Of a stretch of DNA of 64,000 bases, positions 41,954 to 61,411 are shown one piece after another. The notes beneath the pieces are model-generated. The model was given only the letters and a program-made list of their open reading frames with translations, did no database searches and had not been told where the DNA came from. The stretch covers positions 1-64,000 of the forward strand of contig NZ_BLAE01000030.1 in assembly GCF_009687865.1 (NCBI RefSeq), in the 5' to 3' direction. The position numbers were made by a program, and so were the translations under genes. The stretch is from Acrocarpospora macrocephala (GTDB lineage Bacteria > Actinomycetota > Actinomycetes > Streptosporangiales > Streptosporangiaceae). Each line of letters begins with the position of its first letter. Positions within the stretch are counted from its first letter, which is position 1.

Positions 41954-42001
41954 GTCGCGCGCTCCCTTCTGGCACTCCCGGCCCGCCCACTGTAACGTGA
42001 C

Positions 42002-42017
42002 TTAACGCTGTACGTAA
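42002..42017. promoter_or_regulatory. Island operator, site A
   Basis: TTAACGCTGTACGTAA, between the acyl-CoA dehydrogenase operon (minus) and the acyl-CoA synthetase (plus). It matches site F3 (TTAACGTTGTACGTTA) at 14 of 16. A half-site (TAACGTGA) lies at 41993. Confidence 0.65.
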
Positions 42018-42043
42018 TATGCCGATCTGATTTGCGAGGTCAG

Positions 42044-43534
42044 ATGCGTCACCTCGATCTGGTGCGGGGCCCCGCGACCCGGTTCGGCGCCAAGACCGCC
42101 GTGGTCGAGGGCGACCGGAGGGTCACCTTCGCCGAGCTGGACGACCGGGTGGGACGGCTGGGCGCGGCCTTGCGCGCCAGGGGCCTGGCGCCGGGCGACC
42201 GGGTCGCCCTGCTGGCCGCCAACGAGCTGGAATACCTGGAGATCCAGGCCGCGTGCCTGCGCTCGGGGTTCGCGCTGGTTCCGCTGAACACCCGGCTCGC
42301 CCAGCGGGAGTTGGGCTTCATCCTCTCCGACAGCGCCCCGGCCCTGCTGATCGCGGGGCGCGGCGAGGAGGAGCGGGCGGCCGGGACCGGAATACCCCAC
42401 CTGCTGAGCCTGGGCGCGCCACGGGGCATCCCGTCCTATGACGCCGCGCTCGCGGACGCGATCCCGGACTCGGGCGCCGATCCCGGCGACGCGGAACTCC
42501 CCGCCACCATCCTCTACACCTCCGGCACCACCGGCTCGCCCAAGGGCGCGGTCGTGGACCGGCTCGGCTTCACCGCGCGCGTGATGATCAACGCCGTCGA
42601 GATGGAGGTCCGGGCGGGCGACGTGCACCAGGCGAGCCTGCCGATGTTCCACATCGCCGCGTTCCTGTCCTACGCGCACACCGCCGTCGGCGCCACCTTG
42701 GTGATGCTGCCGGAGTTCGCCCCGGAGCGGGCGCTGGACACCCTGGCACGGGAGCGGGTCACCACCACCGTCCTGGTCCCCACGATCATCGCCCTGCTGC
42801 TGGAGAGCCCGCTCATCGACCAGGTCGACCTGTCCGCCCTGCGCCTGATCGTCTACGGCGGCTCGTCCATCGAGCCGGGGCCGCTGCGGCGCGCCCTGGC
42901 CCGCTTCGGCTGCGGGTTCCACCAGCAGTACGGCATGACCGAGACCGGCGGCCAGACCATCCTGCGCCCCGGCGACCACGATCCGGCCGACACCGTACGG
43001 CTGGCCTCGGCGGGAACCGAGGCGATCGGCCTGGAGGTGAGGGTCGTCGGCGACGGGGACAAGCCGGTGGCCCAGGGCGAGGTCGGCGAGATCGTCTGCC
43101 GGGGGCCTTCGGTGATGCGCCGCTACTGGAACCGGCCGGAGGCCACCGCGGCCGCGCTGCGCGGCGGCTGGATGCACACCGGCGACCTGGGATACCGGGA
43201 CGAGGGCGGCTACCTGCACATCACCGACCGGCGCAACGACATGATCATCACAGGCGGGGAGAACGTCTACCCGCGCGAGGTGGAGGCGGTGCTGTCCGAG
43301 CATCCCGGCATCGCCGAGGTGGCCGTGGTGGGCGCCCCGGACCCCGTGTGGGGGCAGGTGGTCACCGCAGTCGTGGTGGGGGACGCGCACTTCGACGGGG
43401 AGTTGACCGCCTGGGCCAGGGAGCGGCTGGCCGGTTACAAGGTTCCCCGCCGCTGGATCAGGGCCGAGAGCCTTCCCCGCAATGTCACGGGGAAGGTGCT
43501 CAAGCACCGCCTGCGAGCCATGCTTTCCGGCTGA
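42044..43534 (+). CDS. Acyl-CoA synthetase (AMP-forming), second copy in the island
   Basis: A 496-residue ANL ligase. A3 LYTSGTTGSPKGAVVD (about 158), QQYGMTETGGQ (A5, about 300), HTGDLGYRDEGGYLHITDRR (A7-A8), MIITGGENVYPREVE, and NVTGKVLKHRL with the catalytic Lys. ATG 42044 with GAGG upstream; TTG 42032 is a weaker start. Only about family-level similar to the ligase at 39224, so they probably activate different acids. Divergent operator A. Confidence 0.9.
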   Translation: MRHLDLVRGPATRFGAKTAVVEGDRRVTFAELDDRVGRLGAALRARGLAPGDRVALLAANELEYLEIQAACLRSGFALVPLNTRLAQRELGFILSDSAPALLIAGRGEEERAAGTGIPHLLSLGAPRGIPSYDAALADAIPDSGADPGDAELPATILYTSGTTGSPKGAVVDRLGFTARVMINAVEMEVRAGDVHQASLPMFHIAAFLSYAHTAVGATLVMLPEFAPERALDTLARERVTTTVLVPTIIALLLESPLIDQVDLSALRLIVYGGSSIEPGPLRRALARFGCGFHQQYGMTETGGQTILRPGDHDPADTVRLASAGTEAIGLEVRVVGDGDKPVAQGEVGEIVCRGPSVMRRYWNRPEATAAALRGGWMHTGDLGYRDEGGYLHITDRRNDMIITGGENVYPREVEAVLSEHPGIAEVAVVGAPDPVWGQVVTAVVVGDAHFDGELTAWARERLAGYKVPRRWIRAESLPRNVTGKVLKHRLRAMLSG

Positions 43535-43540
43535 TCCGGC

Positions 43541-44320
43541 TCACTCGCCGCGGAAATCCGGGGCGCGCCGCTCGAGGAAGGCCCGGATGCCTTCAGTGAA
43601 GTCATGGGTCTTCCAGAGTTCCGCGACCCGCTCCTGCTCCAGATCCAGCTGCTCCGCCAGGCCTTGCGCGCTCGCCCGGTCCACCAGTTCCCGCACCCGC
43701 AGCAGGGCCAGCGGCGGACCGGCCGCGAGCGTGGCCGCCAGCTCCTGGGCGGCGGCCAGCGCCGACCCGTCCGGCACCGGCGGCTCGGCCAGGCCGAGCG
43801 CCGCCGCCTCCGCCGCGCGGACCGGCCGGTTGCGCAGCAGCAGGGACAGGGCGCGGGCCGAGCCCAGCATCCGGGTCAGGAAGTAGGACACGCCGCCGTC
43901 CGGGGAGGAGCCGATGCCCAGGTAGCCGGGGACGAGCCGGGCGCCCTCGGCCAGGATCCGCAGGTCGGCGCAGAGCGCGAGCCCCATCCCCGCCCCCACG
44001 GCGGGCCCTTCGACGGCGGCGATCAGCGGCACCGGCAGGAGGCGCAGCCGCTTGAGCGTGCCGTGCAGCCCTTCGACCAGCGGGGTGAGCACCTCGGCGG
44101 GTTCCCCGGCCAGGGCCTGGCCGACCAGGGTGAGGTCGGCTCCGGCGCAGAACGCGGGGCCGCGCCCAGTCAGGACCAGGGCGCGGGCGCCCCGCTCGAC
44201 CAGGGACGCCGCCGCCGGGGCCAGATTGCCGACCAGGTCGACGGTGAGCGCGTTCATCTTGTCCGGCCGGTTCAGCTCGATGGTGCCCACCCGGCCGGTG
44301 AGCGATGTCTCCAGGGACAC
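43541..44320 (-). CDS. Crotonase-fold enzyme, PaaG-like (isomerase rather than hydratase)
   Basis: A 259-residue enoyl-CoA hydratase/isomerase. Oxyanion-hole segments FCAGADLTLV (about 60) and VGAGMGLALCADLRI (about 105). Both Glu residues of classical hydratases are absent (Gly at the first site, Gly at the second), while SSPDGGVSYFLTRMLG supplies an Asp as in 2,3-dehydroadipyl-CoA isomerase PaaG. GTG 44320 with GAGGAGGT. It is the last gene of the DUF6285/phosphotransferase operon. Confidence 0.85.
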   Translation of the reverse strand: MSLETSLTGRVGTIELNRPDKMNALTVDLVGNLAPAAASLVERGARALVLTGRGPAFCAGADLTLVGQALAGEPAEVLTPLVEGLHGTLKRLRLLPVPLIAAVEGPAVGAGMGLALCADLRILAEGARLVPGYLGIGSSPDGGVSYFLTRMLGSARALSLLLRNRPVRAAEAAALGLAEPPVPDGSALAAAQELAATLAAGPPLALLRVRELVDRASAQGLAEQLDLEQERVAELWKTHDFTEGIRAFLERRAPDFRGE

Positions 44321-44337
44321 GGGACCTCCTCGCGGGA

Positions 44338-45339
44338 TCAGTAGCCGATGGTGCGCAGACCGTGGTCCATGCACATGTAAGGGACGCCCATACCGAGACG
44401 GACGAAGGTCGCGTCGCGCACGCCGTCCCGGCCGAACCCGCTCACCAGCGGGAAGGAGGTGCAGATGTACTCGGCGTCGATGAAGACGGAGTAGTACCTG
44501 ATCCGCTCCTCGTCGATCCTCGGCCCGCCCGCCTTCTCGTACGCCTCGAACATCTCCTCGCGGGGCAGCAGCGCGTCCGCGCCGCGCCACAGGGCCGAGG
44601 CCCAGTCCTTCATGGGGTCGCCCAGGTGCGCCTGCTCCCAGTCGGTGAGCGCCACCACCTGGTCGCCCTCGTAGATGAAGTTGCCGACGCCCACGTCTCC
44701 CCACACCAGGGAGGTACGCGAGACCTCGGTGGGCACGTTGCGCTTCAGCCAGGAGAACAGGGCCTCCACCACGGGCATGGGCTCGGGTTCCGCGGCCCGG
44801 TAGGCCCGCTCGTAGTGGGCCAGCTCCAGCAGGGCGCAGTCCTCCGGACGTGCCGGCACGGCCATGAAGTCGCCGAGTCCGGCGCGCTCCCAGTCGAGGG
44901 TGTGCACGGCCGCGAGGCGCTCGGCCAGGTGCCTGCCGATCCTGCGCCGCGTCTCCTCCCGGCCCGGGGCGAACAGCTTTCCCGCCGAGGCCGAGCCGGG
45001 CACCGTACGGCGCACGTAGAACGGCGCGCGTCCGATCAGCGATTCGTCGGTCTCGAACCACAGCGCCCGCGCGACCGGCACCTCGGTCGGGCCGAGCGCC
45101 GCGAAGGTGCGGTACTCGCGCTCCAGGCCGACCGGGACCACCGAACCCTCCGGGTGATCGACCCTGATGGTCAGCGCGTCGGTGAACTCCGCGCCGTCCC
45201 TGACGCCGGAGACCTCGGCGAACCAGGTCTGCCTGGACATCCCGCCGACATTGCGTTTCAGGGACACGACCGTGAGATCGTCGGCCTCCAGGCGATCGCG
45301 CAGGTACGCGCCCAGCCGCCCGTCGTCCAGCCCGGTCAC
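44338..45339 (-). CDS. Phosphotransferase family protein (APH fold) of the island
   Basis: A 333-residue APH-like protein. The catalytic loop is SLVWGDVGVGNFIYEG (about 200, Asp and Asn kept, the usual His replaced by Trp), then ALTDWEQAHLGDPMKDWA (DFD equivalent). MSRQTWFAEV near 36 is the nucleotide loop. Such genes recur beside acyl-CoA dehydrogenases in mycobacteria and relatives; ACAD10/11-type fused kinases phosphorylate 4-hydroxyacyl-CoAs, which is a plausible role here. GTG 45339 overlaps the upstream stop. Confidence 0.82.
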   Translation of the reverse strand: MTGLDDGRLGAYLRDRLEADDLTVVSLKRNVGGMSRQTWFAEVSGVRDGAEFTDALTIRVDHPEGSVVPVGLEREYRTFAALGPTEVPVARALWFETDESLIGRAPFYVRRTVPGSASAGKLFAPGREETRRRIGRHLAERLAAVHTLDWERAGLGDFMAVPARPEDCALLELAHYERAYRAAEPEPMPVVEALFSWLKRNVPTEVSRTSLVWGDVGVGNFIYEGDQVVALTDWEQAHLGDPMKDWASALWRGADALLPREEMFEAYEKAGGPRIDEERIRYYSVFIDAEYICTSFPLVSGFGRDGVRDATFVRLGMGVPYMCMDHGLRTIGY

Positions 45340-45815
45340 GACGCCACCGGGCGGAATGACATGAACAGCGGCTCCACCATGGGCTTGGTCCGGTCCACCT
45401 GGCGCCGCACCAGTCGGTAAACCTCGTCCCTCAGATCCTGTACGGCGGGATCCGCCCCCTCGGCCTCGTCCAGCCATCGCATCACCGCCACGATCACGCC
45501 CCGCAACTGCTCGTTGCGCGCGGTCGCGTCCCCCGGCGGGTCGCCCGCCGCCCCCGCGACCAACTCCGCCAAGCTGTCCCATTCCCCGCCCAGGGCAGCG
45601 GCGCTGCCGCCGATCGCCGCGAGGACCGCCAGCATGTCGGCGCTGTCCTCGGCCAGCGCGTCCCCCTCTCCCGCCAGGCGCAGTTTCAGGTGCTGGAGCA
45701 GGAGATCCATCGCGGCGCCGGCATAGCGGGCCCAGCGGTCCTCGACATGGGGCAGCAAGGTCTCGTTGAGGGACAGCCGGAGGCTGTCCAGCAGGTCATC
45801 CGGTGACGGCCGCAC
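45336..45815 (-). CDS. DUF6285 domain protein, partner of the phosphotransferase
   Basis: A 159-residue all-helical protein (RPSPDDLLDSLRLSLNETLL, HVEDRWARYAGAAMDLL) of the small family that accompanies APH-like proteins in acyl-CoA clusters. GTG 45815 is preferred over TTG 45839 because the protein then starts at the conserved RPSxxDLL. No catalytic motif is seen; likely a subunit or regulator of the kinase, since the genes overlap by 4 bp. Confidence 0.7.
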   Translation of the reverse strand: MRPSPDDLLDSLRLSLNETLLPHVEDRWARYAGAAMDLLLQHLKLRLAGEGDALAEDSADMLAVLAAIGGSAAALGGEWDSLAELVAGAAGDPPGDATARNEQLRGVIVAVMRWLDEAEGADPAVQDLRDEVYRLVRRQVDRTKPMVEPLFMSFRPVAS

Positions 45816-45841
45816 AGACGCCTTCTCCCTCGTCCTCAAGA

Positions 45842-45859: not shown

Positions 45860-45910
45860 ATTATGTCCGTTACAGTACCGCATAGCTATCTAACGTGAAA
45901 GGTCAGCACG

Positions 45911-46903
45911 ATGGGTATCGCACCGATCCTCGACCAAGACGAGTACATGCACGAACCCACCGACCACCCGCAGTTCAACGAGTCGGCCTACTACAACTTC
46001 GTGGACAACGACTCGGGCTTCGGGGTGCTCATCAGGATGGGCAACCGGGTCAACGAGGGGCACGCCGAGGTCACCGTGCTGCTCTACCTTCCCGGCGGCG
46101 GAGCGGCCATCCGATTCGACCGCGCGCCGATAAACGACAACGACAGGTTCAAGGCGGCCGGGCTGGCGTTCGAGGTCGTGGAGCCGCTGCGGAAGATCAA
46201 GGTCGTCTTCGACGGCACCGCGTACCTGCTGGACAAGGGCACCGCCCTGGAGAACCCCAAGCGGGCCTTCACGACCAGCCCCGTCGTCCCGATCGCGCTC
46301 GAGCTGCTCTACGACAACGTCGTCCCGGTGTACGGGCTCGGCGGGGGCTCCGGCATCCAGGGCGCGGAGGACAGCATCGCGGTCGGCCACTACCAGGGGC
46401 CCTGCGCCGTGCGGGGCTGGGTGGAGATCGACGGCCGGCATCGCCACATCAACGGCCTGGGCTTCCGCGACCACTCCTGGGGGCCGCGCATCTGGCAGGG
46501 TCCCCGGTTCTGGCGCTGGCTCTCCTGCATGGCCGACGAGCGCAACGGTTTCGTCGCCTGGGCGCAGCAGATCGGCGACACCCCCTCGCCCGGCAACGGC
46601 ATGGTCCTGCGCGACGGCGTGGTCGAGCTGGTCAACCGGGTCTCGGTGCAGAGCGAGTACGGCCCGGCCCCCTACTACGCGACCTCCACGCGAGTCTCTA
46701 TGTGGACCGAGTCGGGCGAGCACGTGGCGGCCTCCGGCACGATGTTCCACAACGTCCCCCTGCGCAACCGCCGCGACGGGGAGGTCGCCAGACTGGCCGA
46801 GTACCTGGTCGAGTTCGACTACCTGGGCACGACCGGCTACGGCGTCTGCGAGTTCCACGACCGCATGATCGAGGGCGTCCCCGCGGGGATGCACGTGGCA
46901 TGA
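45911..46903 (+). CDS. DUF7064/DUF7065 lipocalin-like protein
   Basis: A 330-residue beta-rich protein with FNESAYYNFVD near 22 and the signature GLGFRDHSWGPRIW near 185, typical of the DUF7064/7065 proteins related to AttH/CrtC-type folds. These occur in acyl-CoA and steroid catabolism clusters of actinobacteria. Members of the fold include hydratases, but no activity is established. ATG 45911 after AAGG. Its stop overlaps the next ATG. Confidence 0.72.
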   Translation: MGIAPILDQDEYMHEPTDHPQFNESAYYNFVDNDSGFGVLIRMGNRVNEGHAEVTVLLYLPGGGAAIRFDRAPINDNDRFKAAGLAFEVVEPLRKIKVVFDGTAYLLDKGTALENPKRAFTTSPVVPIALELLYDNVVPVYGLGGGSGIQGAEDSIAVGHYQGPCAVRGWVEIDGRHRHINGLGFRDHSWGPRIWQGPRFWRWLSCMADERNGFVAWAQQIGDTPSPGNGMVLRDGVVELVNRVSVQSEYGPAPYYATSTRVSMWTESGEHVAASGTMFHNVPLRNRRDGEVARLAEYLVEFDYLGTTGYGVCEFHDRMIEGVPAGMHVA

Positions 46904-47895
46904 AGGGGCTGCGCTTCGCCCGGCACGGCGGGCCCGAGGTGCTGGGCTGGGACGAGGTCCCGGTGCCGGAGCCCGGTACCGGCGAGCTGCTGATCGAGGT
47001 GCGCGCCTTCGCCGTGAACTGGGCCGACCTGCTGGAACGCGCGGGAAGATATCCGGGCGCGCCCGAACCGCCCTACGTCATGGGCCACGACCTCACCGGC
47101 GTCGTGGTGGCCAGGGGGCCAGGCGCCGAGGGCCCTCCGATCGGCACACGGGTCTTCGGGGTGATCTCCAAGGGCGGCGCGGCGGCCGAGTTCGTCACCG
47201 CGCCCGTGACCCAGGTCTACCCGGCGCCGGCGACGCTCAGCGACGCCCAGGCCGCCGGGGCCGCGGGCCCTTACCTCACCGCCGACGCCGCCATCCTCAC
47301 CATGGGCCGCCTGCGCAAGGGCGAGGACGTGCTGATCCACGCCGCGGCCGGCGCGTACGGCTCGGCCTGCCTGCAGCTGTGCCGGGCGTACGGCGCCGGA
47401 AGGATCATCGCCACCGCCGGTTCCGACGCCAAGGCGGAGCGGATCCGGCAGTGGGGCGCCGACGTGGCGGTCAACTACACCACGCGGGACTTCGCCGAGG
47501 TCGTCCGCGAGGTCACCGGCGGGCGCGGCGTGCCGCTGCTCCTGGAGTCCGTCGGCGGCGAGGTCCTCGACCGCAGCCTCGACTGCCTCTCCCCCGGCGG
47601 CCGCCTGGTCAGCGTGGGGGCCAGCAGCGGCCGGGGCAGCCAGCGGCTCCGGCTGCACACCCTGTTCGAGCTGGGCGTCTCGGTGTCCGGCTTCACCCTC
47701 GGCACCTGGCTGGCCCACAACCCGGAACTGGTACGCCCCTCCGTCGAGCGCGTCCTCCAGCAGTTCGAGAACGGCGGAGCCGCCCCCGTCGTCGCCCGGG
47801 TGTTCCCCGCGGCCGAGGTCGCCGCCGCCCACGAGTTCCTCGCCGCCCGCCGTTCGGTGGGCCGCACGGTCGTCACCGTTGCCGAAGCCCTCTGA
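46900..47895 (+). CDS. NADPH:quinone oxidoreductase-like MDR enzyme
   Basis: A 331-residue zinc-free medium-chain reductase: NWADLLERAGRYPGAPEPPY (about 40), VMGHDLTGVV, and the NADPH motif HAAAGAYGSACLQL (AAxGxxG, about 148). No zinc-ligand Cys is present. It probably reduces an enone or enoyl thioester of the pathway. ATG overlaps the preceding stop (ATGA). Confidence 0.9.
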   Translation: MKGLRFARHGGPEVLGWDEVPVPEPGTGELLIEVRAFAVNWADLLERAGRYPGAPEPPYVMGHDLTGVVVARGPGAEGPPIGTRVFGVISKGGAAAEFVTAPVTQVYPAPATLSDAQAAGAAGPYLTADAAILTMGRLRKGEDVLIHAAAGAYGSACLQLCRAYGAGRIIATAGSDAKAERIRQWGADVAVNYTTRDFAEVVREVTGGRGVPLLLESVGGEVLDRSLDCLSPGGRLVSVGASSGRGSQRLRLHTLFELGVSVSGFTLGTWLAHNPELVRPSVERVLQQFENGGAAPVVARVFPAAEVAAAHEFLAARRSVGRTVVTVAEAL

Positions 47896-47948: not shown

Positions 47949-48737
47949 ATGGCGGACATGGAACGCGTGGACAGGGAGACCCTGTACGTCGAGAAGTACC
48001 CGTCGGACCGGTACGCGGTGGTCACCCTGCACCGGCCCGACGTGCTCAACGCCGGCAGCCCGGCCCTCTTCGGGGAGCTGGCCGACACCATCGCCTCGTT
48101 CGAGACCGACGACCAGGTCCGCGCCATCGTGCTGACCGGCAACGGCCGGGCCTTCTCGGCCGGCGCCGACCTGGGCGGCATGACCTTCGACAGCATGGGC
48201 GACTGCCGCAGGTTCATCCGGCTGGCCCACGCGCCGTTCGAGGCGATCGAGCGCCTGGGCAAGATCGTGATCGCCGCGGTCAACGGCTACGCCTTCGGCT
48301 TCGGCACCGAGATCGCCCTGGCCTGCGACCTGGTCCTGGCCTCGGAGAAGGCCCGCTTCGGCCTGCGCGAGATGAACCACGGCCTGGTCCCCGCGGTCAC
48401 CATCACCCGCGGCGTCGACATGATCGGCCGCCGCCGGGTGGCCTGGATGGCCTACACCTCCGACGACATCTCCGCCGAGGAGGCCAGGGAGCTCGGCTTC
48501 GTCAACAGGGTCGTCGCGCCCGAGTCGCTGGCGCAGGCCTACACCGAGCTGGCCGTGCGGATGGCCAAGCGGGCCCCGCTGGCCGTCGCCGCCACCAAGT
48601 GGGCCCTGAACAAGCAGGCCGGCGGCCACTACCGCGAGGGCGAGAACCTGATGCCCGCGATCTTCGCGTCGGCCGACGTGGCCGAGGGCCGCCGGGCGTT
48701 CGAGGAGCGCCGCGAGCCCGTCTTCCGCGGCGAATGA
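47949..48737 (+). CDS. Enoyl-CoA hydratase
   Basis: A 262-residue crotonase. Oxyanion-hole segments RAFSAGADLGGM (about 70) and NGYAFGFGTEIALACDLVLA (about 110). Both hydratase glutamates look present: Glu in FGTEIALACD and Glu in FGLREMNHGLVP. It adds water to an enoyl-CoA. ATG 47949 with GAGGAG 9 nt upstream. Same transcript as the SDR that follows. Confidence 0.9.
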   Translation: MADMERVDRETLYVEKYPSDRYAVVTLHRPDVLNAGSPALFGELADTIASFETDDQVRAIVLTGNGRAFSAGADLGGMTFDSMGDCRRFIRLAHAPFEAIERLGKIVIAAVNGYAFGFGTEIALACDLVLASEKARFGLREMNHGLVPAVTITRGVDMIGRRRVAWMAYTSDDISAEEARELGFVNRVVAPESLAQAYTELAVRMAKRAPLAVAATKWALNKQAGGHYREGENLMPAIFASADVAEGRRAFEERREPVFRGE

Positions 48738-48763
48738 CCCAAGCGAGAGAGGAGAGAACCGCG

Positions 48764-49540
48764 ATGAGCGTGCTGGACCAGTTCAGACTCGACGGCAAGG
48801 TGGCCATCGTCACCGGCGCCTCCTCCGGGCTCGGCGTCGGTTTCGCCGAGGCGCTCGCCGACGCGGGGGCCGACGTGGTCCTGGGGGCGCGGCGGGTGGA
48901 CCGCCTGCACGAGGTCAAGGGCAAGATCACCGCGGCCGGGCGCCGGTGCGTGGCCGTCCGGACCGACGTCTCCCAGGTGGCGGACTGCGAGGCCCTGGTG
49001 GCGGCCGCGGTCGAGCAGCTCGGCGACGTGCACATCCTGGTCAACAACGCCGGGGTCGGCCACGCCGCTCCGGCCCACAAGGAGAAACCGGAGGACTTCG
49101 CCCGGGTCGTGGGCGTCAACCTGGTCGGCGCGTACTACATGGCCCAGGCCTTCGGCCGCGCCTGCATCAAGGCGAAGCACGGCGGCTCGGTGGTCAACAT
49201 CTCCTCGGCGCTGGGCATCAGCGGCGGCGACATCCCCCAGGTGGCCTACTCCTCCTCCAAGGCGGGCATGAACGGCATGACCCGCGACCTGGCCATGCAG
49301 TGGTCGGCCAGGTACGGCATCCGCGTCAACTCCCTGGCCCCGAGCTTCTTCTCCTCCGAACTGACCGATCCGCTGCTGGCGTCCGAGGTGGGCGTGGGCA
49401 AGGTACTGGCGCGCACTCCCCTGGGCCGCATCGGGGAGACGCACGAGCTCTACGGGGCGCTGCTGCTGCTGGCCTCCGACGCCGGGTCGTACATCACGGG
49501 CGTCACGCTGCCGGTCGACGGCGGCTGGAGCCTCCACTAG
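48764..49540 (+). CDS. SDR family oxidoreductase
   Basis: A 258-residue classical SDR: TGASSGLG (17-24), NNAGVG (about 92), Ser in NISSALG, YSSSKAG (Tyr-x-x-x-Lys about 158), PVDGGWSLH end. ATG 48764 with GAGAGGAGAG. Very similar to the SDR at 59501 (both begin MSVLDxFRLDGKVAI), so the island holds two paralogues. Likely a 3-hydroxyacyl-CoA dehydrogenase step. Confidence 0.92.
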   Translation: MSVLDQFRLDGKVAIVTGASSGLGVGFAEALADAGADVVLGARRVDRLHEVKGKITAAGRRCVAVRTDVSQVADCEALVAAAVEQLGDVHILVNNAGVGHAAPAHKEKPEDFARVVGVNLVGAYYMAQAFGRACIKAKHGGSVVNISSALGISGGDIPQVAYSSSKAGMNGMTRDLAMQWSARYGIRVNSLAPSFFSSELTDPLLASEVGVGKVLARTPLGRIGETHELYGALLLLASDAGSYITGVTLPVDGGWSLH

Positions 49541-49639: not shown

Positions 49640-49655
49640 TTCCGTTCAACGTGAA
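49640..49655. promoter_or_regulatory. Island operator, site D
   Basis: TTCCGTTCAACGTGAA, 55 bp before the start of the ABC binding-protein gene. The core CGTTCAACG is shared with sites E, F1, G and H. Confidence 0.7.
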
Positions 49656-49709
49656 AAACTCACCCGGCAATGGAGGCCCGCGCGGAGGCCTTGCTCATGG
49701 AGGTTCGCA

Positions 49710-50747: not shown

Positions 50748-50753
50748 CGGAAC

Positions 50754-50980: not shown

Positions 50981-51056
50981 CTGCCAATATCCCCGATATG
51001 GGACGAGCAGCACCATCGCATGTTAACGGGCGATTACGCGTTCCATGCTTGCCATC

Positions 51057-51073
51057 TTGCGTTCAACGTGAGA
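51057..51073. promoter_or_regulatory. Island operator, site E
   Basis: TTGCGTTCAACGTGAGA, upstream of the ABC ATPase gene; a -10-like TATAGC follows at 51082-51087, so the site covers the -35 region. Confidence 0.7.
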
Positions 51074-53688: not shown

Positions 53689-54096
53689 CTAGACCAGGCT
53701 GGCCTTGCCGACGTTCTCCCTGATGTACTCGGCGACCACGCCGCCGGGCAGCCCCGGCGGGAAGGAGCGGTGCACGCCCAGCGCCCGGAGCGGCTCGAAG
53801 TCCACCTCGGGGATGATGCCACCCATGATCACCAGGACCTGGGTCATGCCGCGTTCCTTGAGCGCGGGGATCAGGTCGCGGGCGATCTGCAGCTGCCCGC
53901 TGGTCATCACGCTGACGGCGACCACGTCGGCGTTCTCCTGCAGGGCCGCCTCAGCGATCTCCGCCACGACGCCGAACCGGAAGTAGACGACCTCCATGCC
54001 GGCGTCGCGCAGCTCCCTGGCGATCAGCTTGCTGCCGCGCCCGTGGACGTCGATCTTCTTCTTGGCCAGCAAGACCTTGATGTGCTCTCCGGACAC
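53689..54096 (-). CDS. Acyl-CoA mutase small subunit (B12-binding)
   Basis: A 135-residue cobalamin-binding Rossmann protein. The base-off motif DxHxxG appears as IDVHGRGSKLIARELRDAG (His supplies the lower cobalt ligand), with SVMTSGQLQI and VIMGGIIPEVDF completing the site. GTG 54096 is chosen over GTG 54105, which would overlap the AAGGAG ribosome-binding site. Together with the large subunit it forms a heteromeric mutase as in isobutyryl- or 2-hydroxyisobutyryl-CoA mutases. Confidence 0.92.
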   Translation of the reverse strand: MSGEHIKVLLAKKKIDVHGRGSKLIARELRDAGMEVVYFRFGVVAEIAEAALQENADVVAVSVMTSGQLQIARDLIPALKERGMTQVLVIMGGIIPEVDFEPLRALGVHRSFPPGLPGGVVAEYIRENVGKASLV

Positions 54097-54134
54097 GGGG
54101 TCCACTCCTTATTCGATGCGCGATATGCGACGGT

Positions 54135-55802
54135 TCACTCGCTGACGTACCAGCCGAACGCTTCGCGCATCGGCACCATCATCTCGCCGTTGGTCACGCC
54201 CTTGCGCGCCGCGTCCACGAGCGCGGGCATCAGCGGTCCGGTGCCGTCCTTGAGGTTCTGGCAGGCTCGCCTGACGTCCTCGATCGCCGCGTCCACCGCG
54301 GCCTGGTCCCGCTTGGCGCGGTAGGCCTCCAGCCGGGCCCTGGCCTTGACCTCGATCGTCTCGTCGATGCGGAACGGCTCGTAGTTCTCCTGCTCCTGCG
54401 AGACGTAGCGGTTGACGCCGACGATCGGCAGGTCGCCGCTGTTGATCATCTTCTTCATCTCGTACGAGGAGTTGTCGATGTTCCGCTTGACCTCGCCGGT
54501 CTCGATGCCGCGCAGGTAGCCGCCGGAGGCCTCGATCTCGTCGAAGATCTCCCAGGCGGCGGCCTCCATCTCGTCGGTGAGCTTCTCGATGAAGTAGGAG
54601 CCGCCCAGCGGGTCGGCCACGTCCCGCAGCCCGCTCTCCCACATCAGGATCTGCTGGGTGCGCAGGGCGGTGCGGTGCGACTGCTCGGTCGGCACGCCCA
54701 CGGCCTCGTCGTAGGAGCAGGTGTGGATCGACTGCACGCCGCCGAGCACCGCGGCCAGCGTCTGCAGGGTGATCCTGGCGTTGTTGTTCATCAGCTGCTG
54801 CTGGGTGAGCACGTAGCCGCTGGTGTGCACGTGCACGCGGGCGAACATGCCGGACGGCTTGGTGACCCCGGCGTCCTTGCAGAGCCTGGCCCACATCCTG
54901 CGGTGCGCCCGGAACTTGGCGACCTCCTCGAAGACGTTCACCGTGCAGCCGATCTGGAAGGACAGCCGGCCGATGAAGTCGTCGGGCTCGAGACCCGCGG
55001 CCAGGCCCGCGTCGATGATCGACTTACCCCAGGCCAGGCCGTAGGCGAGCTCCTGTACGGGGGTGGCGCCGGCCTCCGACAGGCCGTACATGAAGATGTT
55101 GGCCGGGTTCCAGTCCGGCGCGTTCGCCCTGGCCCACCTGATCAGGTCGATCATCAGGGCGTAGCCCCAGCGCGGCTCCCAGGAGGGGACGTCCTGGACA
55201 GCGATGCGCGGATACCAGTTCATCGAGTTGCCGTGCATCTTGCCGACCGGCTCGCCGCGCCGTTCGACGGCGGCGGCCAGCAGGGCCAGCGCGGGCAGGC
55301 AGTTGTCCCCGGTGATCATGGAGAAGTTGGTGGTCTCCAGGTCCCAGTCGCGGATCAGCTCGTCGTAGTCGTCGCCGGTGCTCATGTGCACGCCGCACTG
55401 GCCGATGTTGCCGACGGCCTCGGGGTGGTCGGCGTCGATGCCGTACATGCAGGGGACGTCGTAGACGGTGTTGAAGACCTTGTGGCCGAAGTAGCCCTCC
55501 ATGCCTTCGGCGACCATCTTCTCCATCTTCCGCCGGGTCTCCTCGATGGTCCCGTACCCGAAGACCATCTGCTGCATCCACGGCGTGAGGGCGTAGCCGT
55601 CGGGGTGCAGGCCCCGGGTGAACGGGTAGACGCCGGGCATCTCCGCCAGGTCGGAGGCGGTGGTGTCGTCGGGGGTGTAGACGGTCTTCAAGGGCAGGCC
55701 GGAGAGGGTCCTGGCCGGGCGCAGCTTCGCGGCGTAGCGGGCCCGGCGCTCGGCCCACGCCCGCTTGGCGGCTTCGAACTTGGCGCTGGTGAGGGATGTC
55801 AC
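54135..55802 (-). CDS. B12-dependent acyl-CoA mutase large subunit
   Basis: A 555-residue TIM-barrel mutase: VYPFTRGLHPDGYALTPWMQ (about 58-77), GLSEAGATPVQELAYGLAWG (about 243), TSGYVLTQQQLMNNNARITL, CSYDEAVGVPTEQSHRTALR, ADPLGGSYFIE. It lacks methylmalonyl-CoA mutase features: by my manual alignment Tyr89 becomes Val, Arg82 becomes Thr, and Arg207 becomes Ala, so a free carboxylate cannot be held. It is therefore expected to rearrange a non-dicarboxylic acyl-CoA. Upstream gene overlap (ATGA) with MeaB; the small subunit follows. Confidence 0.9.
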   Translation of the reverse strand: MTSLTSAKFEAAKRAWAERRARYAAKLRPARTLSGLPLKTVYTPDDTTASDLAEMPGVYPFTRGLHPDGYALTPWMQQMVFGYGTIEETRRKMEKMVAEGMEGYFGHKVFNTVYDVPCMYGIDADHPEAVGNIGQCGVHMSTGDDYDELIRDWDLETTNFSMITGDNCLPALALLAAAVERRGEPVGKMHGNSMNWYPRIAVQDVPSWEPRWGYALMIDLIRWARANAPDWNPANIFMYGLSEAGATPVQELAYGLAWGKSIIDAGLAAGLEPDDFIGRLSFQIGCTVNVFEEVAKFRAHRRMWARLCKDAGVTKPSGMFARVHVHTSGYVLTQQQLMNNNARITLQTLAAVLGGVQSIHTCSYDEAVGVPTEQSHRTALRTQQILMWESGLRDVADPLGGSYFIEKLTDEMEAAAWEIFDEIEASGGYLRGIETGEVKRNIDNSSYEMKKMINSGDLPIVGVNRYVSQEQENYEPFRIDETIEVKARARLEAYRAKRDQAAVDAAIEDVRRACQNLKDGTGPLMPALVDAARKGVTNGEMMVPMREAFGWYVSE

Positions 55803-56788
55803 TTCTGCTCCGTTCCTGGGATGTCCGCGCTGAGCGTGCGGTGGGCGTTCAGCAGCGCGCCGACGTAGGCTTCGGCGGCGCCGTACGGGTCGGCCGGCCG
55901 CGTGTCGCCGAGGGTCTCCTCGGCGGCCTTCAGCAGCTCCCCGCGGAGCCGGTCGGCGACGAACGCGGTGAATCTGGACCGCCCGCGGGCGCGTTCCGCG
56001 GCGGCCCGCCAGGCGGTGGCGCCGGTGAAGGCGTGGTGCTCGTCCACGGCGGCGGCCAGTTCGGCGACGCCCTCCCCGCGCAGGGCCGACACCGTGAGCA
56101 CCGGGACCTTCCAGCGCTCGGCCCCGTCGGGGCCGGTCCGCTCGAAACCCTGCGCGGCCAGGTCCTTGGCGGTCTGGTCCGCGCCGGGGGCGTCGCCCTT
56201 GTTGACGGCCACCACGTCGGCGATCTCGGTGATGCCGGCCTTCATCGCCTGCAGGGCGTCGCCGTAGCCGGGGACCAGCACCAGGACGACGGTGTGGGCG
56301 ATCCTGGCGATGTCGAACTCGCCCTGCCCGACCCCGACGGTCTCGATGAGGACCACGTCCTTGCCCATGGCGTCCATGACGTCGACGGTGTCGTTGACGG
56401 CGGCGGCCAGGCCGCCGGAGGCCCCCCGGGAGGCGACCGAGCGGATGAACACGCCCGGGTCCCCGCCGGCGGCCTCCGCCATCCTGTCCCGGTCGCCGAG
56501 CAGGGCTCCCCCGGTGAACGGGCTGGAGGGGTCGACGGCGATCACCCCCACCGTCCGCCCCTGGCCCCGCAGGTGCCTGATGAGCGCGGCGGCCAGGGTG
56601 CTCTTGCCCGCGCCCGGCGGGCCGGTGACGCCCACCAGCTGCGCCCTCCCGCAGTACGGCGCGAGCGCGCGCAGGACCGGCCTGGCCTGGGGGCGGCCGT
56701 TCTCGATCTGGGTGATCAACCGCCCGGCGTGGAGCACGCTTCCGGCGACGACCTCGCCGGCCGGCACTGTCACAGCTTCCACGATCAC
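55799..56788 (-). CDS. meaB: MeaB/ArgK-type G-protein chaperone of the mutase
   Basis: A 329-residue GTPase: P-loop GPPGAGKST (54-62), VDPSSPFTGGALLGDRDRM, ETVGVGQ (switch), VNKGD (guanine recognition) and a C-terminal dimerisation helix. It protects and reloads B12 mutases. GTG 56788 begins the operon meaB, mutase large, small, SDR. Operators F1-F3 lie immediately upstream. Confidence 0.95.
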   Translation of the reverse strand: MIVEAVTVPAGEVVAGSVLHAGRLITQIENGRPQARPVLRALAPYCGRAQLVGVTGPPGAGKSTLAAALIRHLRGQGRTVGVIAVDPSSPFTGGALLGDRDRMAEAAGGDPGVFIRSVASRGASGGLAAAVNDTVDVMDAMGKDVVLIETVGVGQGEFDIARIAHTVVLVLVPGYGDALQAMKAGITEIADVVAVNKGDAPGADQTAKDLAAQGFERTGPDGAERWKVPVLTVSALRGEGVAELAAAVDEHHAFTGATAWRAAAERARGRSRFTAFVADRLRGELLKAAEETLGDTRPADPYGAAEAYVGALLNAHRTLSADIPGTEQK

Positions 56789-56800
56789 CCTCGCGATAAG

Positions 56801-56869
56801 TTTACGTTCAACGTTAGTCTTTCATACGCTTGAACGGTAGCACCACACCGAGATTAACGTTGTACGTTA
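56801..56869. promoter_or_regulatory. Island operator cluster, sites F1, F2, F3
   Basis: F1 TTTACGTTCAACGTTA (56801-56816), F2 ATACGCTTGAACGGTA (56824-56839), F3 TTAACGTTGTACGTTA (56854-56869). They fill the 106-bp gap between the divergent meaB operon and the crotonase gene. F1 and F3 are strong; F2 is degenerate. Centres are 23 and 30 bp apart. Confidence 0.75.
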
Positions 56870-56894
56870 CATAAGACCTGAGGAGCCGAGTAGA

Positions 56895-57686
56895 TTGACC
56901 AGCGAAGACCTGGAGACCCTGGCGGTGGCGGACTCCGGGACCCGCCTCGCCATCACGCTCAACCGCCCGGCGGAGCGCAACGCCCTCACCTTCGGGGCCT
57001 GGGACGACCTCGACCGGGTGATGTCCGAGGTGGAGCTGCGCGACGACCTGCGCGTCGTCACCCTCACCGGCAGCGGCCCCGCCTTCTGCGCCGGGGTGGA
57101 CTTCGGGGCGATCGGGGCCGCCCTGGAGGTGGAGCGGGGCAGCTTCCCCTCCTTCATCCGGCGCTGGGCGAACATCGTCGACCGCTTCGAGCGGGTGCCG
57201 CAGCCCAGCGTCGCCGCGATCAACGGCCCCGCCATCGGCGCGGGCCTCGAGCTGGCCCTGGCCTGCGACATCAGGATCGCCAGCGACCGGGCGATCTTCG
57301 CCATGCCCCAGCTCAGGATGGGCATCGTCCCCGACGTCGGGGGCACCAGCCGCCTGGCGCGGGCGACCGGGGAGGCGTTCGCCAAGGACGTGATCCTCAC
57401 CTCCAGGATCGTCGACGCCGAGGAGGCGCTGCGCGCCGGGATCGTCAGCCGGGTGGTGCCGCACGAGCGGCTCGCGGCGGAGTTGGAGGGCGTCGCCGCC
57501 GCGATCGAGGACCTGCCCTGGCCTTCGGCGTACTTCGCGGGCCTCGCCATCGACGTCGGCCCGCGCCTCGACTCCCGCCGGGCCGCCGACATCGAGGCCA
57601 TGGCCGACCAGGTGATGCTCCGCCAGGAGGAGGTCTGGACGCGGATCTCCCGGTTCATGGAGGGCAAGGGCCTGCGCGGAATCTGA
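56895..57686 (+). CDS. Crotonase-fold enoyl-CoA hydratase/isomerase
   Basis: A 263-residue crotonase: AFCAGVDFGAIG (about 64), NGPAIGAGLELALACDIRIA (about 111, first Glu kept), then MPQLRMGIVPDVGGTSRLAR, where the second hydratase Glu is replaced by Gln and an Asp is present. Isomerase or hydratase cannot be decided. TTG 56895 is preceded by GAGGAG. Divergent partner of the mutase operon. Confidence 0.85.
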   Translation: MTSEDLETLAVADSGTRLAITLNRPAERNALTFGAWDDLDRVMSEVELRDDLRVVTLTGSGPAFCAGVDFGAIGAALEVERGSFPSFIRRWANIVDRFERVPQPSVAAINGPAIGAGLELALACDIRIASDRAIFAMPQLRMGIVPDVGGTSRLARATGEAFAKDVILTSRIVDAEEALRAGIVSRVVPHERLAAELEGVAAAIEDLPWPSAYFAGLAIDVGPRLDSRRAADIEAMADQVMLRQEEVWTRISRFMEGKGLRGI

Positions 57687-57696
57687 CCTTTACGTA

Positions 57697-57714
57697 TTTA
57701 ACGTTCAACGGTAA
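57697..57714. promoter_or_regulatory. Island operator, site G
   Basis: TTTAACGTTCAACGGTAA, 45 bp before the CoA-transferase genes; TTTACGTA at 57689 adds a partial second half-site. Confidence 0.75.
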
Positions 57715-57759
57715 GTTGCTGCTGCGACGAGGAGGAACCGTGAGAGCTGTGGGAGCACC

Positions 57760-58662
57760 ATGAGCCCGGACAAGGTCAGACCGCTGGAAGCCCTGGGAGA
57801 GCTGGTCCGCGACGGCGACTCGGTGGCCTTCGGAGGCGGCTGGTTCGCCAACCACCCCATGGCGGCGGTCCGCGAGCTGATCCGCGCCGGGCGCAGGGAC
57901 ATCCGCGCCCTCACCGTCGTCGGCTCGGTGGACATGGACCTGATGGCCGCGGCGGGCACGCTGGGCCACCTGTCGTTCTCCATGGTCACGCTGGAGGCGT
58001 TCGGCCTGGCCCCCAGCGTGCGCGGCGCGATCGAGTCCGGCGCGCTGCCGTTCACCGAGTACACCGGTCTTGGGCTGCTGATCGGCCTGGAGGCGCAGGG
58101 ACGCGGCGTGCCGTACCTGCCCTACCGGGGGCCGTTCGGCTCGGACATCCCGGCCCGTTACCCGGAGATCTACGCCACCACCGCCTGCCCGTTCACGGGC
58201 GAGGAGCTCACGGCCGTCCGCGCGATCAGGCCCGACGTCGCGATCGTGCACGCACTGCGCGCCGACGCGGAGGGCAACGCGCAGTGGGACGGCACCTCGG
58301 GGCCCGACGTGGAGATGGCCAAGGCGGCCGGGCGGGTGATCGTGACCTGTGAGGAGATCGTCGACCGTGACGTGATCGTGGCGAACGCGCACATGACCAA
58401 GCTGCCCGGTTACTACGTGGAGGCGGTCATCGAGGCGCCGTTCGGCGCGCACCCCACCTCGCACATTCCGCGTTACGCCATGGACGCCTGGGAGCTCATG
58501 GACTACGCCGCCGCCGTGAGCGGCCCGGCGTTCTCCGACTACCTCGGCCAGATCCGCGGCGAGAGCGAGGCGGAGTACCGGGAGCGCGTGCTCAAGGGGC
58601 GCGACGGCGTGCTGCGGCGGCTGGTGGACGCCGCGGAGATTATCGAGGAGGCGCACGCATGA
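57760..58662 (+). CDS. CoA-transferase alpha subunit, IpdA-like
   Basis: A 300-residue family I CoA-transferase: MAAVRELIRAGRRDIRALTV (about 30-49), VEMAKAAGRVIVTCEEIV (about 188), AHMTKLPGYYVEAVIEAPFG. It resembles both glutaconate CoA-transferase A and IpdA, the alpha subunit of a steroid ring-opening hydrolase. Which reaction it does is not visible. ATG 57760 after GGGAG; overlaps the beta subunit by 4 bp. Confidence 0.85.
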   Translation: MSPDKVRPLEALGELVRDGDSVAFGGGWFANHPMAAVRELIRAGRRDIRALTVVGSVDMDLMAAAGTLGHLSFSMVTLEAFGLAPSVRGAIESGALPFTEYTGLGLLIGLEAQGRGVPYLPYRGPFGSDIPARYPEIYATTACPFTGEELTAVRAIRPDVAIVHALRADAEGNAQWDGTSGPDVEMAKAAGRVIVTCEEIVDRDVIVANAHMTKLPGYYVEAVIEAPFGAHPTSHIPRYAMDAWELMDYAAAVSGPAFSDYLGQIRGESEAEYRERVLKGRDGVLRRLVDAAEIIEEAHA

Positions 58663-59504
58663 CCGACTATGAGATCCACGAGCTGATGACCTGCCGGGTC
58701 GCCGCCGAGGTGGACGAGCGGGGCGTCACCGTGATGGGATCCTTCACTCCCCTCGCGTACGCCTCCTACATGCTGGCCAAGCTGACCCACGCCAGGGACG
58801 CCTACCTGGTCGGCTTCGACGCGGTGGGGATGGCCCCGATCCAGCTCTCCTTCACCGGCGCCGAGGCTTCGGCGTACAAGGGGGCGGCCTGCCGTTGGGG
58901 CATGCTGACGGAGATCAACTCCATCCACCTGGCCGGGCACGGCGGGGTGGAGGCGGTCTCCTCCGCCCAGTTCGACGGGAACGGGGCGATCAACCTGTCG
59001 GCCATCGGGCCGTTCGAGACCCCCAAGGTCCGCCTGCCCGGCGGCGCGGGAGCGGCCGAGGTGATCAAGATGTACCGGAAGATGATCGCCTACTTCGGCA
59101 ACCACAACCCCCGCACGCTGGTGGAGAAGGTCGGATTCGTCACCGGCACCCGGTGGAAGGTCGGCGACCGGGCCCGCCAGGAGGCCGGGCTCCAGCCCGG
59201 GCCGATCATCGTCGTCACCAACCTGGCCGTCCTGATCAAGGACGAGGACGACCGGCCGTTCCGCGTCGAGAGCCTGCACCCCGGCGTGGATGTCGCCACG
59301 GTGGTGGCGAACACCGGTTTCGAGCTGGACGTGCCGGAGCACCTGCCGGCCACGGCCGAGCCGACCGCCGAGCAGCTGGAACTGCTCCGCACGAAGATCG
59401 ACCCGTTCGGCACCGTGAAGTTCGACTTCGTCTCGGGCAAGGACCGGCTGTCCTACCTCAGGGACGTCCTGGACGCCGAGTGGAACCGGGCCACGGCGTC
59501 ATGA
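58659..59504 (+). CDS. CoA-transferase beta subunit, IpdB-like
   Basis: A 281-residue partner: MLAKLTHARDAYLVGFDAVG (about 38-57), GGAGAAEVI, LVEKVGFVTGTRWK (about 152), MKFDFVSG-like KFDFVSGKDRLSYLRDVL end. ATG overlaps the alpha stop, so a fixed heteromer is made. Overlaps the following SDR start too (ATGA). Confidence 0.85.
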   Translation: MTDYEIHELMTCRVAAEVDERGVTVMGSFTPLAYASYMLAKLTHARDAYLVGFDAVGMAPIQLSFTGAEASAYKGAACRWGMLTEINSIHLAGHGGVEAVSSAQFDGNGAINLSAIGPFETPKVRLPGGAGAAEVIKMYRKMIAYFGNHNPRTLVEKVGFVTGTRWKVGDRARQEAGLQPGPIIVVTNLAVLIKDEDDRPFRVESLHPGVDVATVVANTGFELDVPEHLPATAEPTAEQLELLRTKIDPFGTVKFDFVSGKDRLSYLRDVLDAEWNRATAS

Positions 59505-60277
59505 GCGTCCTCGACCGGTTCAGACTGGACGGGAAGGTGGCGATCATCACCGGGGCCTCGTCCGGTCTCGGCGTCACCTTCGCCCTCGCCCTGGCCGAGG
59601 CCGGAGCCGACCTGGCCCTGGGCGCGCGCAGGGTCGAGCTGCTGCGGGACACTCAAGGCAAGGTGGCGGCGCTGGGCCGCCGCTGCGTCGCCGTGCCCAC
59701 CGACGTGGCCGACCCCGACGACTGCGAGCGCCTGGTCGCCGCCGCGCGGGACGAGCTCGGCGACGCGCACGTGCTGGTGAACAACGCGGGCGTGGCCCGG
59801 GTCGCGCCCGCCCACAAGGACGACCCCGCCGAGTTCGCCCGCGTGCTCCAGGTCAACCTCACCGGCGCCTACCAGATGGCGCAGGCCTTCGGCCGGGCCT
59901 GCATCGCCGCCGGTCACGGCGGGTCGATCGTCAACGTCTCCTCGGTGCTCGGCCTGGTGTCGGCCGACGCCCCGCAGGCCGCCTACAGCGCCTCCAAGGC
60001 GGGCCTGCTCGGGATGACCAGGGACCTGGCCCTGCAGTGGACGCTGCGGCGCGGCATCCGCGTCAACGCCCTGGTGCCCGGCCTGATCGTCACCGGCATG
60101 ACCGCCGCGATCCGGGCCAATGAGCAGGCCTCGGCGAGCGCGCTGGCGAGCATCCCGATGCGGCGGCTCGGCGACGCCGACGAGCTCGTGGGGGCCCTGC
60201 TCCTGCTGGCCTCCGACGCGGGCAGCTACATGACCGGCTCCGCCCTGATCGTGGACGGCGGCTGGACGGCGCAGTGA
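59501..60277 (+). CDS. SDR family oxidoreductase, paralogue of the one at 48764
   Basis: A 258-residue SDR: TGASSGLG (17-24), NNAGVARVAP, YSASKAGLLGMTRDLALQWT (Tyr/Lys pair about 158). Highly similar over its length to the SDR at 48764. ATG 59501 overlaps the preceding stop by 4 bp. Probable 3-hydroxyacyl-CoA dehydrogenase of the same pathway. Confidence 0.92.
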   Translation: MSVLDRFRLDGKVAIITGASSGLGVTFALALAEAGADLALGARRVELLRDTQGKVAALGRRCVAVPTDVADPDDCERLVAAARDELGDAHVLVNNAGVARVAPAHKDDPAEFARVLQVNLTGAYQMAQAFGRACIAAGHGGSIVNVSSVLGLVSADAPQAAYSASKAGLLGMTRDLALQWTLRRGIRVNALVPGLIVTGMTAAIRANEQASASALASIPMRRLGDADELVGALLLLASDAGSYMTGSALIVDGGWTAQ

Positions 60278-60321
60278 CAGCCAGCCTTCGGCTGCCGCGA
60301 CATGGGAAAGGCGCGAAGCCT

Positions 60322-61287
60322 ATGTGGGCTAAGAGGATGACCGGCCCCTGTTCCTTCGAGACCGTGGAGATCCCGGCGCCGGTGCCGGATGACCTCGCCG
60401 ACGGCGAGGTGCTCCTCCAGGTGCTGGCAGGCGGGCTGTGCGGGACCGACAGGCCCTACTACCAAGGCTCCGTCAGCACCTGGGCCGAGTCGGACGACCT
60501 GATCCCAGGGTTCCCCATGCATGAGATCGTCGGCGAGGTCGTCGCCGCCAGGACGACGGACCACCAGGTCGGCGACCGGGTTGTCGGCTGGGCGACGCGC
60601 TTGAACGGCCTGCAGGAGCTGATCATCACCGAGGGTTCCTCCGTGCACGCCTACGACTCGTCGCTGCGCCCCGCCGAAGCCATCGCGCTGCAACCCCTCG
60701 CGTGCGTGATCTACGCCGTGGAACGACTCGGCGACGTGTCCGGGCAGCACTGCGCGGTCATCGGCCAGGGCCCGATCGGCGTGCTGTTCAGCCACGTCCT
60801 CAAGAACGCGAGGGCGCGCAAGGTGACCGGCGTCGACCGGATCGACCGGCGTGACATCCTCGGCGACTTCGGCGTCGACGACCCGGTCTTCCTCTCCAGC
60901 GGCCGCTGGGCCGCCGCCCTGACGGATGACGAGGACCGTCCCGACGTCATCGTCGAGGCCGTGGGGCATCAGGTGTCCACCCTCACGCACGCCGTCGCCG
61001 CCGCGCGGCCGCTGGGCCGCATCCTGTACTTCGGCGTCCCCGACGACAGCGTCTACCCGATCGACATGGAGAAGATGGTGCGCAAGCACCTGACCCTCAT
61101 CTCCGGCTCGACGCTGGAGCGCCGCCGGGTGCTGGCCGCGGCCGGCGAGTACGTCAAGGCCCACCCCGACTTGATCAGGACCCTCGTCACCCACGAGTTC
61201 AAGGTCGACGCGACCGCCGAGGCCTACCGCACCGCCTTCACGCCCATGAGCGGCCAGCTCAAGGTCGTCATCACCATGGGCGACTGA
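60322..61287 (+). CDS. Zinc-dependent alcohol dehydrogenase-like MDR protein
   Basis: A 321-residue MDR: GGLCGTDRPYYQ (Zn Cys, about 36), FPMHEIVGEV (His-Glu), QPLACVIYAVERLGDVSGQH, NAD motif IGQGPIGVLF (about 152), ILYFGVPDDS. The structural-zinc Cys quartet is not seen. ATG 60322 fits the family N-terminus; GTG 60274, which overlaps the upstream stop, is also possible. Oxidises an alcohol of the pathway. Confidence 0.85.
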   Translation: MWAKRMTGPCSFETVEIPAPVPDDLADGEVLLQVLAGGLCGTDRPYYQGSVSTWAESDDLIPGFPMHEIVGEVVAARTTDHQVGDRVVGWATRLNGLQELIITEGSSVHAYDSSLRPAEAIALQPLACVIYAVERLGDVSGQHCAVIGQGPIGVLFSHVLKNARARKVTGVDRIDRRDILGDFGVDDPVFLSSGRWAAALTDDEDRPDVIVEAVGHQVSTLTHAVAAARPLGRILYFGVPDDSVYPIDMEKMVRKHLTLISGSTLERRRVLAAAGEYVKAHPDLIRTLVTHEFKVDATAEAYRTAFTPMSGQLKVVITMGD

Positions 61288-61342
61288 CCAGCGCGACCGC
61301 GTCCTCTGACATGGGCATGCCCTCCTCATTTCTTGTCGGATA

Positions 61343-61359
61343 TTGACGTTCAACGTTAA
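61343..61359. promoter_or_regulatory. Island operator, site H
   Basis: TTGACGTTCAACGTTAA. Its first six bases are a good -35, and TAATTT (61366-61371) lies 17 bp downstream as a -10, so binding would exclude RNA polymerase from the LivHM promoter. Confidence 0.75.
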
Positions 61360-61411
61360 AGAGAATAATTTCGCACCCACTCGACCGACAACGCCGGAGG
61401 CGGGACTCCCG

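Follow-up and report, generated by a model that had tools for sequence, protein, structure and literature searches.

The DNA analysed here (the window) comprises the first 64,000 bases of contig NZ_BLAE01000030.1 (132,597 bases) of Acrocarpospora macrocephala, an assembly (GCF_009687865.1) of 12.1 Mb in 166 contigs; the G+C content of the window is 70%. A catabolic gene cluster of about 32 kb occupies the contig from about 39.2 to 71.7 kb, with its left three quarters inside the window and the remainder beyond its right end. The part within the window carries two acyl-CoA ligases, an acyl-CoA dehydrogenase, three crotonases, a B12-dependent mutase, a two-subunit CoA-transferase-like enzyme and two ATP-binding cassette (ABC) importers. 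To the right of the window follow the rest of an importer binding protein and two ATPases, and then a flavoprotein resembling 3-ketosteroid dehydrogenases, whose top NCBIfam match, 4-oxocyclohexanecarboxylate 2-dehydrogenase, reaches 449 bits where the cut-off is 1000. The cluster is completed by genes for a thiamine-diphosphate enzyme, a MaoC hydratase, a second acyl-CoA dehydrogenase and a MerR-family regulator. Its transcription units share a putative operator, a 17-bp dyad predicted as TTAACG(TTNAA)CGTTAA, and the MerR-family protein is the probable regulator.

An earlier note on this DNA had listed ten copies of a palindrome, each before a transcription unit. Nine of the ten fit TTAACGTTNAACGTTAA well, and the palindrome is real: TTTACGTTNAACGTAAA occurs within three mismatches at six places in the window and at none in 100 dinucleotide shuffles. 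The tenth copy, at 56824, was rejected as an independent site, with 9.8 bits, a shifted left half and no conservation in relatives; four of the coordinates given earlier were off by one, and the exact starts are those of Table 1. A symmetric 17-bp matrix built from the nine good sites underlies all bit scores of sites reported here, and leave-one-out scores range from 16.9 to 29.2 bits. All nine lie upstream of start codons, with starts set by comparison to relatives and some of them approximate. The earlier list was incomplete in that the cluster runs past the window with further sites at 67737, 69425 and 71154, and a weaker site at 45890 is also conserved. Along the contig, places above 17 bits number ten between 41,900 and 71,300 and none in 1–41,900 or 75,300–102,000, with means over 60 shuffles of 0.00, 0.05 and 0.02 for the three intervals, respectively. 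At a threshold of 17 bits, the statement that the first 41 kb holds no copy is borne out, the best match there reaching 16.6 bits at 31034.

The cluster recurs in three genomes of the Thermobifida group (G317, G318 and G320), in which 28 of the 29 genes under comparison are matched, with best protein identities of 61–89%. The sole unmatched gene is the alcohol dehydrogenase at 60274–61287; the short-chain dehydrogenase gene at 52861–53676 stood outside the comparison. Gene order is partly rearranged in the relatives and extra genes are present. The genes that flank the cluster, a major facilitator superfamily gene on its left and two genes to the right of merR, are unmatched in these three genomes. 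For eight of the ten listed sites an orthologous counterpart exists in all three relatives, and none was found there for 56854 or 56824. In ten alignments that span eleven sites, the other genomes agree with the own sequence at 478 of 544 positions within sites and at 1060 of 2342 positions in the flanks, so that conserved sites stand within diverged DNA. This count omits the 51056 site and leaves the columns of 56854 out of both figures; with 56854 included, 491 of 595 site positions are identical. G317 is missing from the alignments for 47905 and 49639, and T. fusca (G319) enters that of merR only.

The distribution of the cluster is sparse. Among 341 genomes of the family, the CoA-transferase-like subunit was matched in four (E-value at most 1e-60) and the MerR protein in six (at most 1e-30), the four being among the six; four congeners matched neither at these thresholds. 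A class-wide orthologue search scoring the best nine candidates per genome returned three of 394 genomes at E-values up to 1e-22, all already known. Among 72,556 plasmid records, no copy of the cluster was found, the best CoA-transferase-like match having 44% identity, and the 74 records that matched MerR all remained below 60%.

Genome-wide scans point to the same confinement. The pattern TTNACGTTNNACGTNAA occurs within one mismatch at nine places in the 12.1 Mb genome, seven of them inside the cluster, and the corresponding shares in the relatives are 7/7 (G317), 7/8 (G318) and 6/6 (G320). The four congeners together show eight scattered places, T. fusca one and a further genome (G052) none. 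Allowing three mismatches makes the pattern frequent throughout the genome (498 forward and 523 reverse places; reversed control, 234 and 235), and weak matches were therefore given no weight. A sequence-only model made from ten own sites recovered six places in the own genome at E-values up to 10, all within the cluster and all training sites; as no place outside the cluster reached this threshold among the best 150 of 3616 first-look candidates scored, a genome-wide regulon is unsupported. Since the own hits are training sites, the relatives provide the independent test of the model, which found four, five and five places in G317, G318 and G320, every one inside the cluster, compared with none in T. 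fusca and one, one, none and none in the congeners. Neither of the two outcomes that the earlier note had named as adverse, a random density of hits across the genome and a lack of sites upstream of orthologous genes, was observed. A regulon restricted to this one cluster is well supported; the note had already proposed that the shared operator ties these catabolic genes into one regulon.

The MerR-family gene lies at the right end of the cluster (contig 71199–71717), about 7 kb beyond the end of the window. Its product has a MerR-type helix-turn-helix (PF00376, 4.8e-17; PF13411, 6.9e-13) and is the sole transcription factor found in the cluster, in which not every small open reading frame was scanned; 20 further reading frames that were scanned (16 from the cluster in G320, 4 from the window) yielded no regulator. 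The dyad precedes merR as TTAACG-N5-CGTTAA in the own genome and in the three relatives, and as TTGACG-N5-CGTTAA in T. fusca. In the 20 kb read of the latter, the only close cluster homologues found are the second acyl-CoA dehydrogenase (79%) and merR (59%); an ABC ATPase there is distant (42%). A single close MerR is encoded in the own genome, with the next-best relative at 37% identity (E-value 5.5e-11). Where the earlier note had placed a TetR-type repressor outside this DNA, the regulator gene found with the site in its own promoter is of the MerR family; no TetR match was found among the cluster proteins scanned, a search that did not go through the remaining TetR genes of the genome individually.

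Two loci located through MerR alone carry the operator as well. In Microtetraspora (L039), five sites above 17 bits occur where the MerR relative stands beside crotonases, a mutase, a dehydrogenase and an AMP ligase, and in an actinomycete metagenome-assembled genome (L035) it accompanies two such sites beside acyl-CoA genes and a DUF7064 gene. No such site occurs in 180 kb of GC-rich control DNA from 12 loci. The Microtetraspora cluster spans 2350–18750 of its locus and also includes a cytochrome P450. Cysteine is absent from the own MerR and from nine of eleven aligned relatives, T. fusca having one and the L038 protein four, and the segment RTIRYYEELGILP is invariant in the actinobacterial MerR subfamily. 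Among MerR relatives of Bacilli (L041, L044, L049, L051 and L060), 16-bp palindromes of the TTGACGTTAACGTTAA type, like the operator minus its centre base, lie before the MerR gene; they hint at an operator typical of the family and were given little weight.

It is probable that the cluster is controlled by its own MerR-family regulator. A MerR dimer would bind the 17-bp dyad upstream of about a dozen transcription units, as well as the core variant before its own gene, would mainly repress the operons of the cluster and, by analogy with LiuR, would be released by an acyl-CoA intermediate of the pathway. LiuR is described as a repressor of the MerR family that acts on branched-chain amino acid utilisation in Proteobacteria (PMC3223726), and the LiuR box precedes the liuR gene in Rhodospirillum (PMC7238569). 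The present system shares with LiuR a MerR-type regulator with one box before several acyl-CoA catabolic operons and a dyad before the regulator's own gene, though here with a core unlike that of the other sites (PMC3223726, PMC7238569). It differs in that its targets are not the liu/ivd set, its good sites are confined to one sparse cluster and its host belongs to the Actinobacteria. No biotin carboxylase or hydroxymethylglutaryl-CoA lyase family match was found among the cluster proteins scanned, and the system was therefore not filed as LiuR. The earlier view of an undescribed regulon holds insofar as no description of the cluster or operator was found in the literature searched, but the kind to which it belongs, MerR regulators that govern acyl-CoA catabolism through a common box, is already known, even if the present system is not LiuR itself. 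As to the ligand, we infer that a pathway acyl-CoA is the natural candidate, and a cysteine-bound metal appears unlikely because the own MerR has no cysteine. An orphan operator thereby becomes a candidate regulator–operator pair, testable with one protein and one 17-bp probe.

The most serious alternative, less likely but still credible, is that MerR acts as a classical activator re-aligning a promoter spacer of 19–20 bp. MerR-family activators normally sit between −35 and −10 boxes that far apart (PMC5045206). By visual inspection, a promoter whose spacer measures 19 bp could overlap the 51056 site. Compared with the classical activators (MerR, CueR, CadR, SoxR), the own MerR has a DNA-binding part related to solved chains (E-values 2e-6 to 2e-11), but it lacks cysteine and falls far below the NCBIfam equivalog cut-offs. 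The promoter scan, in which 2 of 14 site-promoter sides gave a recognisable −35/−10 pair, found no 19–20 bp spacer; both pairs have 15-bp spacers: at echB the operator lies just downstream of the −10 box (TATAGT), and at bcaP it begins at the −35 box (TTGACG). Both placements suit a repressor, and repression is favoured over activation as roughly twice as probable.

Several observations weigh against control by a single repressing MerR. The other 12 promoter sides gave no call, so that the choice between repressor and activator leans on few promoters. The merR dyad scores only 12.5 bits because its core is unlike that of the other sites, and site 56854 is strong (26.4 bits) yet unconserved. 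Some places above 17 bits fall elsewhere, 5 of the 14 first-listed being outside the cluster or lower-ranked. Four MerR relatives from short contigs lack good sites: for those of L036–L038 (48–53% identity over part of the protein) no place exceeds 13 bits, and for that of G052 (50%) none exceeds 17 bits. Finally, G317, G318 and G320 encode two MerR proteins each, with 53–57% and 74–79% identity over the matched part, so that in the Thermobifida-group clusters either paralogue may bind a given site.

This last point leads to an unlikely variant, namely that the sites are split between two MerR paralogues, the TTNAA-core operators falling to one and the merR dyad to its partner, and that the own cluster lost one of the paralogues or never had it. 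The pairs of MerR genes in the three relatives, against one in the own cluster, and the deviating core of the merR dyad would agree with this division; the own genome nevertheless retains TTNAA-core sites with a single close MerR. In the G320 cluster (L122), the paralogues lie at 7794–8291 and 9567–10124.

Slightly less likely again is the earlier idea that the sites are bound by a TetR-type repressor with its gene in another part of the genome. In length and symmetry the dyad would suit TetR equally, and two TetR genes lie near the cluster (32778–33380 and contig 74564–75208). However, the one at 74564 has no match at E-values up to 1e-20 in the relatives' cluster regions (that at 32778 was not searched there), and the 400 bp upstream of either gene contain none of the 45 top-scoring matrix places in 102 kb. 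A TetR protein from outside the cluster would need to be shared with the Thermobifida-group genomes, yet the congeners show no concentration of sites, and the dyad accompanies merR even in T. fusca. That the sites are chance or compositional repeats is practically excluded, since the frequency of the three-mismatch pattern and the single places above 17 bits outside the cluster stand against near-zero shuffle counts, clustering and a conservation amid diverged flanks that already refutes this origin.

Table 1. Predicted operator sites and genes of the cluster; positions are those of the window and its contig, and 3/3 or 0/3 gives the number of Thermobifida-group relatives with an orthologous site.
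Feature	Position	Strand or setting	Details
Operator TTAACGCTGTACGTAAT	42002..42018	between divergent acyl-CoA dehydrogenase (−) and acyl-CoA ligase (+)	21.7 bits (leave-one-out 17.8); 3/3
Operator GTGACGTGCAACGTAAA	45843..45859	upstream of DUF7064/7065 gene	22.2 bits; 3/3
Weaker operator-like site, absent from the earlier list	45890..45906	before DUF7064/7065 gene	12.2 bits; 3/3; identity 0.71 in site, 0.47 in flank
Operator TTTACGTTGAACGTCAA	47905..47921	upstream of crotonase and short-chain dehydrogenase; adjoins −10-like TATAGT	30.0 bits; 3/3
Operator CTTCCGTTCAACGTGAA	49639..49655	upstream of NMT1-type binding protein gene	23.2 bits; 3/3
Operator CTTGCGTTCAACGTGAG	51056..51072	upstream of ABC ATPase/permease genes	20.1 bits; 3/3, orthologous sites 18.8–21.3 bits
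Operator TTTACGTTCAACGTTAG	56801..56817	between divergent meaB (−) and crotonase (+)	29.7 bits; 3/3; site identity 0.96
Operator TTAACGTTGTACGTTAC	56854..56870	second in meaB/crotonase divergent region	26.4 bits; 0/3; 13/51 positions identical
Operator TTAACGTTCAACGGTAA	57698..57714	upstream of CoA-transferase-like pair	28.7 bits; 3/3
Operator TTGACGTTCAACGTTAA	61343..61359	upstream of branched-chain-type ABC importer; −35-like left arm (TTGACG)	30.2 bits; 3/3
Operator-like site	67737	beyond window	16.2 bits (weak); 3/3
Operator	69425	beyond window	27.0 bits, outside matrix training set; 3/3
Dyad TTAACGATACCCGTTAA	71154	beyond window, before merR	12.5 bits; same arms, different core; 3/3
AMP-binding acyl-CoA ligase	39224..40780	−	PF00501
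Acyl-CoA dehydrogenase	40808..41953	−	PF00441/PF02770/PF02771
AMP-binding acyl-CoA ligase	42045..43534	+	PF00501; start approximate, from comparison with relatives
Crotonase	43541..44317	−	PF00378; 5' end approximate
APH-like phosphotransferase	44338..45582	−	PF01636
DUF7064/DUF7065 protein	45911..46903	+	domain match
Zinc-type alcohol dehydrogenase (adhA)	46900..47895	+	PF00107/PF08240; start is first ATG of domain-bearing part
Crotonase (echB)	47949..48737	+	PF00378; start from comparison with relatives
Short-chain dehydrogenase	48740..49540	+	PF13561; 5' end approximate
NMT1-type substrate-binding protein	49710..50747	+	PF09084; start approximate, sole in-frame start found within 49650–49720
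ABC ATPase and permease, same importer as NMT1-type binding protein	51148..52868	+	PF00005, PF00528
Short-chain dehydrogenase	52861..53676	−	PF13561, 5.6e-50
B12-binding small subunit of mutase	53689..54105	−	TIGR00640
Methylmalonyl-CoA-mutase-type large subunit	54135..55802	−	PF01642; closest solved chain 4r3u
MeaB-type GTPase	55799..56788	−	PF03308
Crotonase	56895..57686	+	PF00378
Two-subunit CoA-transferase-like enzyme	57760..59504	+	PF01144; PDB relatives
Short-chain dehydrogenase (5' end approximate) and alcohol dehydrogenase	59501..61287	+	latter without match in relatives' clusters
Branched-chain-type ABC importer permease (bcaP; start approximate) and binding protein	61412..64000, runs past window	+	PF02653, PF13458

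The shared operator outlines a catabolic regulon of ligases, dehydrogenases, crotonases, a B12 mutase, an IpdAB-like enzyme and two importers, and its concentration in the cluster helps to delimit the gene set of the pathway. From the enzyme set, our guess is that the substrate is an alicyclic (ring-bearing) or branched carboxylic acid. The CoA-transferase-like pair resembles solved entries of the glutaconate-CoA-transferase family and probable CoA-transferase entries, some of which we take to be AibAB and IpdAB. When its B subunit is aligned to 1poi, the transferase segment VESG, which presumably holds the catalytic glutamate of glutaconate CoA-transferase, is not kept; on this basis a transferase and an IpdAB/AibAB-like hydrolase or lyase are equally likely. 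For the large subunit of the mutase, the closest solved chain is 2-hydroxyisobutyryl-CoA mutase (4r3u, E-value 4.5e-97), followed by methylmalonyl-CoA mutase. Together with the small subunit and MeaB it forms a three-gene B12 mutase set (53689–56788), its large subunit being distant from solved mutases.

A broader reading is offered tentatively, as a conjecture with somewhat less than even prospects. The mostly cysteine-free actinobacterial MerR subfamily may consist of acyl-CoA-responsive regulators on sparse catabolic clusters, and the cluster described here may encode an undescribed route that joins a flavoprotein oxidising a ring, an IpdAB-like enzyme that cleaves a ring or chain but lacks the active-site segment of CoA-transferases, and a B12 mutase unlike those solved. 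The same MerR subfamily may then mark further clusters, such as that of Microtetraspora. In the cholesterol regulons of KstR and KstR2, both TetR proteins, acyl-CoA catabolic genes including an IpdAB-like pair stand under one operator, as they do here; in contrast, the candidate regulator of the present cluster is of the MerR family. To our knowledge, the KstR and KstR2 motifs do not resemble the present operator. To the left of the cluster, and without strong sites, the window carries molybdopterin/FAD dehydrogenase genes of the xanthine/carbon monoxide dehydrogenase type (34672–37781).

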